From contig DASTWL010000033.1 of assembly GCA_035765895.1 (NCBI GenBank), positions 62,001 to 126,000 on the forward strand: a DNA stretch of 64,000 nucleotides, in the 5' to 3' direction. A program made the translations under genes and the position numbers. This document shows positions 28,031 to 45,367 of this stretch, one piece after another (positions within the stretch are counted from its first letter, which is position 1; every line of letters starts with the position of its first letter). The notes under the pieces are model-generated. The model saw only the letters and a list, made by a program, of their open reading frames with translations. It made no database searches and was not told the origin of the DNA. Source of the DNA: Verrucomicrobiia bacterium. GTDB lineage: Bacteria > Verrucomicrobiota > Verrucomicrobiia > Limisphaerales > DSYF01.

Positions 28031-28153
28031 AACCGCAGAGACACGGAGACGCAGAGATTGGAACAACAGCCCATTAGCAAAATGTCAGCGGATTGACCAT
28101 TGGGATGACGCGCTCTCCCAGCTTGATCCCGGCGTCTCTGCGCCTCCGCGGTT
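28031..28153. repeat. MITE-like inverted repeat pair
   Basis: AACCGCAGAGACACGGAGAC (from 28031) faces the reverse complement of GCGTCTCTGCGCCTCCGCGG (to 28153). The arms are about 22 bases with four transition-type differences, separated by about 76 bases with no open frame. The unit lies between the radical SAM gene and aguA and ends about 55 bases before the aguA start. Confidence 0.6.
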
Positions 28154-28208
28154 GATAATGGTTTCCTGTTTTCAAATCGTGTCTGGTCACTATCCTCCAC
28201 AGACCGTT

Positions 28209-29312
28209 ATGGCGAAGATTGAATTGATCACGAACCAGTCACCGGCGGAACTCGGCTATTCCATGCCCGCCGAATGGGAACCGCACGCCGCCACCTGGCT
28301 CGGCTGGCCGCACAACGAATCCGACTGGCCCGACAAGATTGACACCATCCGCTGGGTCTATGGCGAAATGGTCCGCAAAATCACGCAGGGCGAGATCGTC
28401 CGCCTGCTCGTGCGCAGCAAAGCCGAGGCAAAATTCGCCGCCAGCTATCTCAAGCGCGCCCATTGCGATCTGAAGCAGGTCCAGTTTGTTGTGCATCCGA
28501 CCAACCGCGGCTGGACGCGCGACAGCGGGCCGATCCATGTAACCCGCCCCGCTCCGCGTTCCGCATTCCGCACTCCGCGTTCAGAAAAGGCGATCGTCCA
28601 TTTCCATTTCAACGCCTGGGCCAAATACCGCAACTGGCAGCTCGACACCAAAGTTCCGGAGACCGCGGCGGCCCTGCTCAAACGCCCGTTGTTTGACGCG
28701 CAGTTCAACGGGAAGAAGTTCGTCATCGAGGGTGGCGGCATCGAGGTGAATGGCCGCGGCACGTTGCTCACCACCGAGGAATGCTATCAGCATCCGACGA
28801 TTCAGGTGCGCAACAAGGGCATGACCAAGGCGCAATATGACGCGCAGTTCAAAAAGTATCTCGGCGTGAAGAACGTCCTTTGGCTCGTCGCGGGCCCCGT
28901 GGGCGACGACACGCATGGCCACATTGACGACATCTGCCGCTTCACGGACCCCAGGACGCTCGTGCTCATCAAGGAGACGAACACGAAGGATCCGAACTAC
29001 CAGCCGCTCGCCGAAAACTGGGAGCGCATTCAGGATTTGCGCCTCGAAGACGGCTCGAAGCCCGAGGTCATCGCGCTGCCAATGCCCGCTCCGGTCCACT
29101 ACAAGAACTGGCGGCTGCCGGCGAGCTACGCGAATTTCTACATCGCGAATTCCTGCGTCATCGTCCCGACGTTCAACGACCCGAACGACCGCGTCGCGCT
29201 CGGCATCCTCGGCGACTTGTTCAAGGACCGCCCCGTTGTCGGCATCCACGCGGTGGATTTGGTGCTGGGCTTCGGTTCGTTGCACTGCCTGACGCAGCAG
29301 GAGCCGGCGTAG
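28209..29312 (+). CDS. aguA: Agmatine deiminase
   Basis: Hydrolyses agmatine to N-carbamoylputrescine, a route to putrescine. The 367-residue protein shows the amidinotransferase-fold marks EWEPHAATWLGWPHNESDW, RDSGPIHV, FVIEGGGIEVNGRGTLL, and the catalytic cysteine in FGSLHCLTQQEP (C360). ATG 28209 (MAKIELITNQSPAEL) gives the family's length. After RDSGPIHV an unusual stretch, TRPAPRSAFRTPRSEKAI, replaces the shorter family loop; it is encoded by a repetitive CCGCRTTCCGC insertion. The partner aguB is not adjacent. The enzyme links to the polyamine genes at 14-18 kb. Confidence 0.9.
   Translation: MAKIELITNQSPAELGYSMPAEWEPHAATWLGWPHNESDWPDKIDTIRWVYGEMVRKITQGEIVRLLVRSKAEAKFAASYLKRAHCDLKQVQFVVHPTNRGWTRDSGPIHVTRPAPRSAFRTPRSEKAIVHFHFNAWAKYRNWQLDTKVPETAAALLKRPLFDAQFNGKKFVIEGGGIEVNGRGTLLTTEECYQHPTIQVRNKGMTKAQYDAQFKKYLGVKNVLWLVAGPVGDDTHGHIDDICRFTDPRTLVLIKETNTKDPNYQPLAENWERIQDLRLEDGSKPEVIALPMPAPVHYKNWRLPASYANFYIANSCVIVPTFNDPNDRVALGILGDLFKDRPVVGIHAVDLVLGFGSLHCLTQQEPA
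28552..28582 (+). repeat. Short tandem-like repeat inserted in aguA
   Basis: Repeating units CTCCGCGTTC, CGCATTCCGC and ACTCCGCGTTC in about 31 bases, coding for an extra loop (PRSAFRTPRS) next to an active-site motif of agmatine deiminase. It probably came from an interspersed repeat. Confidence 0.5.
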
Positions 29313-41976: not shown

Positions 41977-42020
41977 GCCGGACGTCATCCGCCGCGCACA
42001 CACCGACCCCGGGGAAGCTT

Positions 42021-43517
42021 ATGGCCGCAACACTTGAACCGTGTCCGTTCTTCATCGGCGGCGAATGGGTGCAACCCCGCCTTGCCGGCACGCCCGTTTT
42101 CAACCCTTCCGTGGGCGAGGTCATCGCCGAATGTCCCGCCGGCACGGCAGCCGAGGTCAACGCCGCCGTGGAGGCCGCGCAGGCGGCTTTTCCCGCGTGG
42201 ATGCAGACACCCGTGGTCGAACGGGTGCGGATTCTGGCGAGGTTCAAGATGTTGCTCGAAGAAAACTTTGAAGCCATTGTCCGCTGCAACACGCGGGAAC
42301 ACGGCAAGACACTCGTGGAATCGCGCGGCGACGTGAAGCGCGGCCTGGAGGTCATTGAATTTGCCCTCGGCGTCCCGTCCTTGATGATGGGCGAGGTGCT
42401 GGAAAACGTGGCGCGGGGCATTGATTGCGAAGCCATCCGCCAGCCGCTGGGCGTGTGTGCGGGCATCACGCCGTTCAACTTTCCGGCAATGGTGCCGTTG
42501 TGGATGTATCCCATCGCCATCGCCTGCGGCAATACGTTCGTCCTCAAGCCGAGCGAAAAGGTTCCGCTCACCGCGCTCAAAATCGCGCGGCTGCTGGAGC
42601 AGGCCGGGCTGCCCAAGGGCGTGCTGAACATTGTCCACGGCGGCCGCGAGGTCGTGGACGCCCTGCTCACGCATCCCAAGGTCCGGGCGATTTCCTTCGT
42701 TGGTTCCACGCCGATCGCGCGTTACATCTACGAAGTCGGCACCCGGCACGGCAAACGCGTCCAGGCCAACGGCGGCGCCAAGAATTACGTGATCATCATG
42801 CCCGATGCCGATGTGGAAAACACCACGCGCGGAGTGATTGAGGCCGCTTTTGGCTGCGCCGGCGAACGGTGCATGGCCGGGTCCACCGCCGTGCTGGTTC
42901 GCGGCGCCGAGCAGACCGTTTTGCCCACGCTGGTCGAAGCCACCCAACGCCTCAAGGTCGGCCCGACGGACCGCGACGCCCAGCCGGACATGGGCGCGGT
43001 CATCACCCGGCAGCACCGTGACCGCGTGGTGCAACTGATTGAAGCCGGCGTGGCGGAAGGCGCGAAAATTCCAGCGGACGGACGACGGGTGAAGATTCCC
43101 GAAGCGCCAAAGGGATTTTATGTGGGCCCAACCATTCTCGATCACGTGGATCACCAGATGACCGTGGCGCGTGAGGAGATTTTCGGCCCCGTGTTGAACG
43201 TGATGCACATGGAAGATCTGAACGACGCCATCGACCTGGCGAACCGCTCCTGCTACGGCAACGGGGCGTCCATCTTCACGCGCTCCGGCAAGGCGGCGCG
43301 CGAATTCAAGCACCGCGTAAAGGCGGGCATGGTGGGCATCAACATTGGCGTGCCGGCGTCGATGGCGTGGTTCCCGTTCAACGGGTGGGACGAATCCTTC
43401 TTTGGCGACCTGCATATGCAGGGCAAGGAGGGCGTGCAGTTCTTCACACAACTGAAGGTGACCACGAGCCGCTGGTTCAGCTACGGCGAAGAGGACATCT
43501 GGCACAGAGAAAAGTGA
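42021..43517 (+). CDS. mmsA: Methylmalonate/malonate-semialdehyde dehydrogenase (CoA-acylating)
   Basis: CoA-dependent aldehyde dehydrogenase of 498 residues, converting malonate semialdehyde to acetyl-CoA (or methylmalonate semialdehyde to propionyl-CoA). Family marks are ITPFNFPAMVPLWMYPIAIA, SFVGSTPIARYIY, the catalytic FGCAGERCMAGSTAV (C284) and NIGVPASMAWFPFNGW, with TTSRWFSYGEEDIW near the end. ATG 42021 gives the standard length; the frame is open far upstream but that is antisense or out-of-frame noise. Here it completes uracil and thymine breakdown after the aminotransferase. Its stop codon lies inside the left repeat of the four-helix-bundle unit. Confidence 0.93.
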   Translation: MAATLEPCPFFIGGEWVQPRLAGTPVFNPSVGEVIAECPAGTAAEVNAAVEAAQAAFPAWMQTPVVERVRILARFKMLLEENFEAIVRCNTREHGKTLVESRGDVKRGLEVIEFALGVPSLMMGEVLENVARGIDCEAIRQPLGVCAGITPFNFPAMVPLWMYPIAIACGNTFVLKPSEKVPLTALKIARLLEQAGLPKGVLNIVHGGREVVDALLTHPKVRAISFVGSTPIARYIYEVGTRHGKRVQANGGAKNYVIIMPDADVENTTRGVIEAAFGCAGERCMAGSTAVLVRGAEQTVLPTLVEATQRLKVGPTDRDAQPDMGAVITRQHRDRVVQLIEAGVAEGAKIPADGRRVKIPEAPKGFYVGPTILDHVDHQMTVAREEIFGPVLNVMHMEDLNDAIDLANRSCYGNGASIFTRSGKAAREFKHRVKAGMVGINIGVPASMAWFPFNGWDESFFGDLHMQGKEGVQFFTQLKVTTSRWFSYGEEDIWHREK

Positions 43518-43992
43518 CAAGTGATCGGCGATGAGTGACGAGCCGAAACATCGAACGGCGAGCGCCGATGGCAAGGTGCAGAGCTGTCGCGATTTGCTCG
43601 TTTGGCAAAAGGGCATTTCGCTCGCGAAGATGATTTGCAGAATTACGGCTGAATTTCCGCCAGAAGAAAAGTTCGGGCTCATTTCGCAAATGCGACGGGC
43701 TGCTGTTTCTGTCCCTTCAAACATTGCTGAAGGACAGGCTCGGCACACAAGCGGAGGATTTGTTCAATTTATTTCTCACGCCGAGGGTTCGCTTGCCGAA
43801 CTCGACACCCAATTAACTCTCGCGGCGGGACTCGGTTTTCTTTCGACGCAAGAATCCCTGCCATGTGCAGATTCCATCCACGAACAGCGGCGCATGCTGA
43901 ATGGCCTGCGCCGTGTTGTTAGTGGGCAGAAACCTGCTGCCCCAAGCGGCCAGAGATGACAACTTGTCACGCATCACACATCACATGTCACT
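43513..43992 (+). mobile_element. Inverted-repeat unit carrying a four-helix-bundle (S23/IVS) gene
   Basis: Left arm (43513-43542) starts AGTGACAAGTGATCGGCGAT. The right arm (43963-43992), read in reverse complement, starts AGTGACATGTGATGTGTGAT. They match at 24 of 30 positions counted by eye. The passenger gene begins inside the left arm and ends four bases before the right arm. The unit sits exactly between mmsA and hydA: the mmsA stop lies in the left arm and the hydA ATG in the right arm. Confidence 0.65.
43531..43959 (+). CDS. Four-helix-bundle protein (23S rRNA IVS / TIGR02436 family)
   Basis: A 142-residue helical protein with the family marks DLLVWQKGISLAKMICRIT, FGLISQMRRAAVSVPSNIAE, the GQARHTSGGFVQFISHAEGS block, and LAELDTQLTLAAGLGF. 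Homologues are encoded in intervening sequences of 23S rRNA genes and elsewhere; their function is unknown. Here the gene is free-standing within an inverted-repeat unit that interrupts the pyrimidine operon, and it is unrelated to its neighbours' pathway. ATG 43531 lies inside the left repeat arm (ATGAGTGACGAG), so the repeat supplies the N-terminus. It probably does not block downstream expression, because it is on the same strand. Confidence 0.85.
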   Translation: MSDEPKHRTASADGKVQSCRDLLVWQKGISLAKMICRITAEFPPEEKFGLISQMRRAAVSVPSNIAEGQARHTSGGFVQFISHAEGSLAELDTQLTLAAGLGFLSTQESLPCADSIHEQRRMLNGLRRVVSGQKPAAPSGQR

Positions 43993-45367
43993 CCTCATCA
44001 AAAACGGTGAAATCGTCACGGCGAGCGAACGCTACGTGGCCGATATCCTCTGCGAGAACGAAACCATCGCGCGCATCGACCGCGGCATCACGCCGCCGAA
44101 GGGGGCGGAAGTGATCGACGCGCGGGGCAAATTCGTTTTCCCCGGCTTCATCGACCCGCACGTCCACATTTACCTGCCCTTCATGGGAACGTTCGCCAAG
44201 GACGACTACCGCACGGGCAGCCAGGCGGCGCTGGTGGGCGGCACCACGACGCTGATCGAGATGTGCTGCCCGGCCCGTTCGGACGATGCACTGAAGAGCT
44301 TCGAGCTTTGGCGGGGCAAGGCCGAGGGCAAATCCGCGTGCGACTTCACGTTCCACATGGGCGTGACAAGATTTGACGCCCGCACAGAGCGGCAGCTGCG
44401 TGAAATCGTCCGGCGCGGCATCAGCTCCTTCAAAATCTTTCTCGCTTACAAAGGCGCGTTTGGCATCGACGACACGGAGCTGTATCGCACGCTGAAGCTG
44501 GCAAAGGAGCTGGGCGTCATCGTCACGGCGCACTGCGAAAACGAGACGCTCGTGACCGAACGCTGCCGCGAGCTGCTGGCTGCGGGCAAAACCGGCCCGG
44601 GTTTCCACGAACCGAGCCGGCCCGTGCAGGTTGAAGCCGAAGGCGTGCATCATTTGATGACCTTTGCCGAACTCACCGGCGCGGCGACCTACATCGTCCA
44701 CCTCAGTTGCCGGGAAGCCCTGGCCGAAGCCGTCGCCGCGCGGCAACGTGGCGTGCGCGTTGCGGTGGAAACGCTCATCCAATACCTGACGCTCGACAAA
44801 ACCTACGCCGAGAAGCCGCGCTTCGAGGGCGCCAAGTATGTGATGTCGCCGCCCCTGCGCGACAAATGCAACCAGGACATCCTCTGGCACGGCCTGCGCG
44901 ACGGGCTCATTCAAACGGTCGCCACCGACCATGCGCCGTTTGATTTCCGGAAGCAAAAGGCGATGGGCAAAAATGATTTCACCAAAATCCCCAACGGCAT
45001 CCCCTCGCTCGAGGACCGCATCAACCTGCTTTACACCCACGGCGTGAAGGCCGGCCGGATTGACCTGCACACGTTCGTGAATGTCGCCAGCACCCAGGCC
45101 GCCAAACTCTTCGGCCTTTTCCCGCGCAAAGGTGCCATCCAACCGGGCGCGGACGCGGACCTCGTCGTTTATGACCCGCGTTACCGCAGCCGAATCTCGG
45201 TGAAAACACAGCACATGAATCTTGATTACAGCGCGTTTGAAGGCTGGAAGATTGCGGGCCGGCCCAGCGTGGTGACGGTGCGCGGTCAGATTGCCGTTCG
45301 CGATGGGAAGTTTGTCGGCAAGATTGGTCACGGCAAATTCCTCGCGCGCCAACCGGGACATTTCTGA
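43985..45367 (+). CDS. hydA: Dihydropyrimidinase (D-hydantoinase)
   Basis: Binuclear-zinc amidohydrolase opening dihydrouracil to N-carbamoyl-beta-alanine. The 460-residue protein begins MSLLIKNGEIVTASERYVAD, has the metal histidines in GFIDPHVHIYLPF, the carbamylated lysine in SSFKIFLAYKG (K150), VTAHCENE, YIVHLSC and the late aspartate in VATDHAPF. ATG 43985 is convincing because MSLLIKNG is the usual family start, yet it lies inside the right inverted repeat of the four-helix-bundle unit. It has no strong ribosome site of its own. It is the second step of the pathway encoded with preA, the M20 hydrolase, the class III aminotransferase and mmsA. Confidence 0.94.
   Translation: MSLLIKNGEIVTASERYVADILCENETIARIDRGITPPKGAEVIDARGKFVFPGFIDPHVHIYLPFMGTFAKDDYRTGSQAALVGGTTTLIEMCCPARSDDALKSFELWRGKAEGKSACDFTFHMGVTRFDARTERQLREIVRRGISSFKIFLAYKGAFGIDDTELYRTLKLAKELGVIVTAHCENETLVTERCRELLAAGKTGPGFHEPSRPVQVEAEGVHHLMTFAELTGAATYIVHLSCREALAEAVAARQRGVRVAVETLIQYLTLDKTYAEKPRFEGAKYVMSPPLRDKCNQDILWHGLRDGLIQTVATDHAPFDFRKQKAMGKNDFTKIPNGIPSLEDRINLLYTHGVKAGRIDLHTFVNVASTQAAKLFGLFPRKGAIQPGADADLVVYDPRYRSRISVKTQHMNLDYSAFEGWKIAGRPSVVTVRGQIAVRDGKFVGKIGHGKFLARQPGHF

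Follow-up and report, generated by a model that had tools for sequence, protein, structure and literature searches.

S23 four-helix-bundle genes lie between inverted, locus-specific heptanucleotide arrays that apparently delimit a widespread minimal mobile element

Free-standing genes of the S23 four-helix-bundle family are very common, and to our knowledge no function has been assigned to them. Heptanucleotide repeats are likewise abundant in bacteria, and we know of no accepted cause for this abundance. Both matters are brought together by a small locus in a 64,000-nucleotide stretch of DNA from a Verrucomicrobiia bacterium (contig DASTWL010000033.1, positions 62,001 to 126,000; hereafter the window, with positions counted from its first letter), in which an S23 gene stands between inverted repeats that reach into the metabolic genes on either side. 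The question that this arrangement raises is whether gene and repeats belong together as a unit and, if so, of what kind. The features concerned are the following.

42003..43517, + strand: mmsA-like aldehyde dehydrogenase gene, the upstream neighbour (TIGR01722, 637 bits, above the cut-off; start approximate)
43513..43542, + strand: left arm, a degenerate 7-nt array, AGTGACA AGTGATC GGCGATG AGTGACG AG
43531..43959, + strand: S23/four-helix-bundle gene, 142 aa (PF05635, E = 1.3e-33; TIGR02436, 106 bits)
43963..43992, - strand: right arm, an inverted heptad array reading inward AGTGACA TGTGATG TGTGATG CGTGACA AG
43985..45367, + strand: hydA-like dihydropyrimidinase gene, the downstream neighbour (TIGR02033, 545 bits, above the cut-off; N-terminus MSLLIK in common with relatives)

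The inverted repeat that the initial annotation described around the S23 gene is real, its two 30-nt arms being complementary at 24 of 30 positions (80%) across a spacing of 420 nt. A feature absent from that annotation can be read directly from the sequence: both arms are degenerate tandem arrays of a 7-nt unit, and in the right arm Tandem Repeats Finder reports 2.7 copies of TCACACA. The left arm overlaps the mmsA stop codon (TGA, 43515-43517) and the S23 start codon (43531), and the right arm overlaps the hydA start codon (ATG, 43985). The encoded protein is a member of its family above the curated cut-offs (115.8 against 33.8 bits for PF05635 and 106.4 against 24 bits for TIGR02436), with structure-solved relatives in 2gsc and 2rld. 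Profile searches found PF05635 as its sole domain and no recognised catalytic domain, and the protein had no match among phage records.

A search of the source genome yielded six S23 genes, each of which, judged by eye, has its own inverted short-period unit (GTGAC, GCGGAGT, AACATCG, AAAGGGAG, GGTTGAT, and AGGAGCG types); four of the six loci pass an automatic arm test, with L001 and L004 falling under its threshold. Matched inverted flanks are present at 75% of 99 S23 loci from the same order, against 2.8% for flanks paired across loci, and at 76% of 79 S23 loci from many phyla and one archaeon, against 3.0% for mismatched controls, these 79 being the best matches to the query and not a random draw. 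Identity at a lag of 7 nt within the arms is 0.58 against 0.26 in the same-order set and 0.66 against 0.27 in the set from many phyla; period 7 predominates, and a minority of loci have 6- or 8-nt units. Flanks of this kind are found at 2.0% of random intervals and at 1.5% of other ORFs of similar size, and clear arms are absent from about a quarter of S23 loci. The combination of an S23 gene with inverted heptads is general. A search for AGTGACAAGTGATCGG-like pairs around other S23 genes had been suggested, with an absence of arms there counting against the unit: arms do surround most of them, but a AGTGACAAGTGATCGG-like sequence is not common to them. A shared motif of the AGTGAC type was rejected, the heptad being specific to the locus, and what S23 loci have in common is an inverted, locus-specific 7-nt array with no fixed sequence.

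How the two arms of a locus stay alike is illustrated by an S23 locus conserved between genera. Its orthologues differ in heptad (AAAGGGAG, GTGAGTG, GTGAGCC, and AGCAGGTG types), yet the two arms still match each other within each orthologue, with a mean score of 19.5 within loci and 12.5 between them. The arms of one locus evolve in concert, and their likeness in place, despite heptad differences among orthologues, indicates that they are kept alike by pairing selection or by copying from arm to arm. Since some S23 loci are vertically conserved, not all S23 genes have been recently transferred.

Comparison of the mmsA-hydA junction in relatives had been suggested as a means of finding an empty site, and one was found. 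hydA is present in five relatives at 73-84% identity, with mmsA upstream in four of the five. The junction is empty in G033 (87 nt), and three others contain different cargo: in G020 the gene is S23-like and its repeats are of the GAATGAC type, in G028 there is an apparent toxin-antitoxin pair of the VapBC type (identified by eye), and G025 has an unrelated ORF. The nearest empty relative is of the same order only, and the exact boundaries of the window unit are unreadable there. L005 in the source genome (G000) and L030 in G002 have homologous flanks, yet different S23 genes and heptads. Junctions of the mmsA-hydA kind are turnover sites. It had also been held that the unit supplies the stop and start codons of its neighbours. 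HydA begins with MSLLIK throughout, including in relatives without the window unit, and the C-terminus of MmsA falls at nearly the same residue, so that both codons seem to be native ones onto which the arms extend; the claim is therefore doubtful for the window, although in some plasmid insertions the upstream stop codon is indeed completed by the unit.

Cyanobacterial plasmids provide exact empty sites whose flanks are up to 98% identical to those of occupied ones. An S23 unit is either there or missing as one block delimited by the arms, and the empty sites lack arms and gene alike. On plasmid C of T. variabilis, the unit lies in an operon adjoining a virB10-like gene and is bounded by a GTAAT duplication, and plasmids 97-98% identical to this one are without it. 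A Nostoc plasmid operon carries a unit with GGGAAAA heptads (L405) at one junction and, at the next, a different unit with TCAGAAG heptads and a TTCTA duplication (L418/L419); its sister plasmids are empty at both junctions. Target duplications measure 5 nt in two cases and 3 nt in one and are lacking in three, with no sign so far of the constant length that marks a classical insertion sequence; at L408, L407, and L403, which have no duplication, some target bases are lost or replaced. Related units also stand at new sites: L406, L407, and L418 occupy three unrelated sites and are 78-84% alike. The homology of L407 and L418 stops at the outer arm ends, and in the other pairs it continues past one end by as much as about 25 nt. 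G007 has three S23 units that are 85-91% alike at different sites. Judged from these sequence comparisons, S23 units insert as blocks on plasmids. The proposal of the initial annotation that the S23 gene and its inverted arms form a transferable unit is thus upheld by the layout across many phyla, by related units at unrelated sites, by clean empty sites on plasmids, and by the differing cargo at mmsA-hydA junctions. Acquisition of the heptads from the target at insertion is not supported, as related units retain their heptads at new sites.

Several further observations were made on these loci. The three G007 units (L082, L096, and L098) have 6-nt repeats instead of 7-nt ones, and some of their S23 copies contain stop codons, which resembles a recent burst. 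Two loci, L402 and L404, place an S23 gene inside a CRISPR operon, with cas6 on one side and cas4 on the other; the plasmids concerned are from Anabaena sp. 90 (type I-D) and Pseudanabaena galeata. Four elements of about 190 nt that lack the gene (at about positions 297-490 of L426-L429) occur on other cyanobacterial plasmids, with arms as in the S23 unit and a conserved, hairpin-rich interior; Rfam gave no match for the three of these that were searched, nor for S23 units.

Arrays of the same kind are also distributed through whole genomes. In Xanthomonas, GGGAATC heptad repeats form 70-75 convergent inverted pairs per genome (PMC4692102). Inverted arms are present at 93% of 28 Xanthomonadaceae S23 loci, although mismatched pairs also reach 26% because the arms are alike between genomes; about half are GGGAATC-type heptads and several are of the GGGACC type. 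Among 60 Xanthomonadaceae genomes, those with S23 hold far more GGGAWTS and GGGACC arrays than those without, and 70 or more hits of any of three heptad patterns occur in 15 of the 29 genomes with S23 and in none of the 31 without, in counts that ignore phylogeny and in which long arrays are inflated by overlapping hits. Where S23 is present in this family, the type of its arms predicts the type of the arrays; genome-wide heptad arrays accompany both S23 presence and S23 arm type. Of 24 pairs of neighbouring arrays on opposite strands, 23 are directed inward (G083, G100, and G051; counted by hand). The heptad arms of these three genomes (L381-L390) often share an inner tail resembling CGGAARAGC, judged by eye, as if the inner end were fixed.

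The solo arrays of G000, G028, and G016 fit the S23 arms of their own genome better than those of other genomes (p <= 0.0006). Gene-less doublets with the repeats of the gene were found in Xanthomonadaceae and on cyanobacterial plasmids, and the solo arrays of G000, from a scan that covered 462 kb of this genome, resemble its S23 arms, a likeness shown for types other than the GTGAC heptad of the window unit. One solo array lies in the window itself.

28545..28582, - strand: solo heptad array of the GCGGARY type, as in the L005 arms, inside an ORF that resembles agmatine deiminase (by eye)

S23 may not be the only gene family to reside within inverted arrays of short repeats. GxxExxY genes (PDDEXK_3, PF13366; L102-L131) have inverted degenerate arrays at 89% of 18 loci, against 5.9%, with an ACGCGAA/ACACGGA motif and a period, by eye, of about 9-11 nt, longer than the S23 heptads. 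The window also contains a gene-less inverted pair of the GxxExxY array type (28033-28060 and 28133-28156).

On balance, the window unit probably belongs to a widespread class of autonomous, heptad-bounded mobile S23 elements in which the S23 protein drives or guides copying and of which solo pairs are the non-autonomous members. Such a unit would consist of one S23 gene of about 120-150 codons and its inverted degenerate 7-nt arrays, some 430-480 bp in all, and would enter gene junctions, usually codirectionally with the host genes. The S23 protein would bind nucleic acid, recognising the heptad ends when paired in RNA or in a single-stranded DNA hairpin, and would drive or guide copying of the sequence between them, with S23 units as the autonomous form and solo heptad pairs as a MITE- or REPIN-like non-autonomous form. 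The arrays would lengthen by slippage, and their inverted match would be kept by copying one arm from the other. That the S23 protein is the mover is suggested by its being encoded by the only gene enclosed, by its link with heptad type, and by its kinship with Avd. A wider proposal, which is offered tentatively as a possibility, is that S23 proteins act as the mobility factor for a class of mobile DNA that has no transposase and ends in locus-specific 7-nt arrays evolving in concert, that these proteins create many of the genome-wide heptads of bacteria, and that rRNA intervening sequences and Avd are specialised relatives.

The main rival to mobility driven by S23 holds that the gene is a privileged guest and drives nothing: arrays would arise by slippage and be inverted by template switching at hairpins, and S23 would be tolerated in the harmless intergenic loops. 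Heptad arrays without S23 are indeed common, and same-order G025, which has no S23, gives 97 GCGGARY hits; the correlation between S23 and arrays in this order is weak (p = 0.052), and a strict dependence of the arrays on S23 is not seen there. In G083, hairpin arms bracket a terminator that its relative G107 has bare, as though arms could form about a sequence already in place, which fits a guest better than a driver, and the loops of the gene-less pairs in G083, G100, and G051, some of which contain a terminator, are unrelated to each other. A guest would not, however, be expected at flanks that occur at three quarters of S23 loci across many phyla and at 1.5% of ORFs of similar size, and both the joint absence of arms and gene from empty plasmid sites and the agreement of array type with S23 arm type argue against it, so that this explanation appears unlikely.

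Alternatively, the arms may act in RNA, folding out the S23 message for cutting by RNase III or bringing the neighbouring stop and start together, with the match kept by selection for pairing. A precedent exists in the S23-bearing intervening sequence of Coxiella, whose 28-bp terminal stem is cut by RNase III (PMC4990558), and when positions 43500-44005 are folded as RNA, the outermost long helix of the predicted structure is built from the two arms of the window unit (z = -3.4 relative to shuffled sequences). Co-orientation is also strong: between two codirectional genes, S23 is codirectional in 103 cases and opposed in 11 (by longest open frame, not annotation), which implies either dependence of the units on transcription from the host or a strand-aware insertion, for example via RNA. 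Pairing alone, however, needs neither a 7-nt periodicity nor heptads that recur as solo arrays at other genomic positions, and gene-less pairs are numerous; an effect confined to RNA is accordingly judged quite improbable, while looping or RNase III excision at the RNA level may operate alongside mobility. A last notion is chance, the mere proximity of a weak inverted repeat to an unremarkable gene. Taken alone, the window pair could lend itself to this notion, although its match is stronger than chance: the inverted match score is 16.8, and scores as high were obtained for 0.47% of 3000 random intervals and for 0.44% of 454 ORFs from the source genome. The recurrence of period-7 arms at three quarters of S23 loci refutes it.

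The preferred reading, a mobile element moved with the help of its S23 protein, can be set beside several known systems. The Coxiella 23S rRNA intervening sequence measures about 430 nt, contains an S23-family ORF, and has complementary ends, and an earlier hypothesis regarded the ORF as a mobility component (PMC4990558). The window unit shares the trait of RNA-pairing ends, with arms complementary at 24 of 30 positions and predicted to fold into the outer helix, but it lies in a protein-coding mmsA/hydA operon and ends in heptad arrays; an Rfam search gave no rRNA match in L002, and the window S23 gene is not within a 23S rRNA gene. Like S23 units, the REPIN/RAYT system (PMC3116915) combines one gene in inverted repeats with many gene-less, hairpin-forming inverted doublets in the same genome. 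It differs in that the RAYT gene encodes a Y1 (IS200-like) tyrosine transposase, whereas the S23 protein shows PF05635 only, and in that its repeat is a fixed palindromic 20-mer or thereabouts, whereas that of S23 units is a tandem 7-nt array varying by locus. The heptameric SSRs of Xanthomonas and Nostoc are GGGAATC-type heptads as here, but their description (PMC4692102) makes no mention of S23, and here heptads also form the ends of S23 units. The gene-less plasmid elements of about 190 nt recall MITEs in having ends in common with a gene-bearing unit, but no transposase is known for the heptad ends of S23 units. Avd, an accessory protein of diversity-generating retroelements, is the partner of a reverse transcriptase and a related four-helix bundle (NF033474, E = 2.8e-5); the window protein differs in scoring 24.4 bits against a cut-off of 80, and its gene has metabolic genes as immediate neighbours and no reverse transcriptase.

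No paper linking S23 or four-helix-bundle proteins to heptads, repeats, or mobility was found in a literature search to which subscription journals were mostly closed, and S23-plus-repeat units apparently represent a widespread, undescribed kind of minimal mobile element. These units connect to the rRNA intervening sequences and to the Avd proteins of diversity-generating retroelements, and they suggest a mobile element without a recognised recombinase. The plasmid comparisons supply exact pairs of occupied and empty sites for experiments. The link between S23 and heptads gives both the S23 genes and the heptad repeats a testable role, and mobility of the units would explain the scattered distribution of S23.
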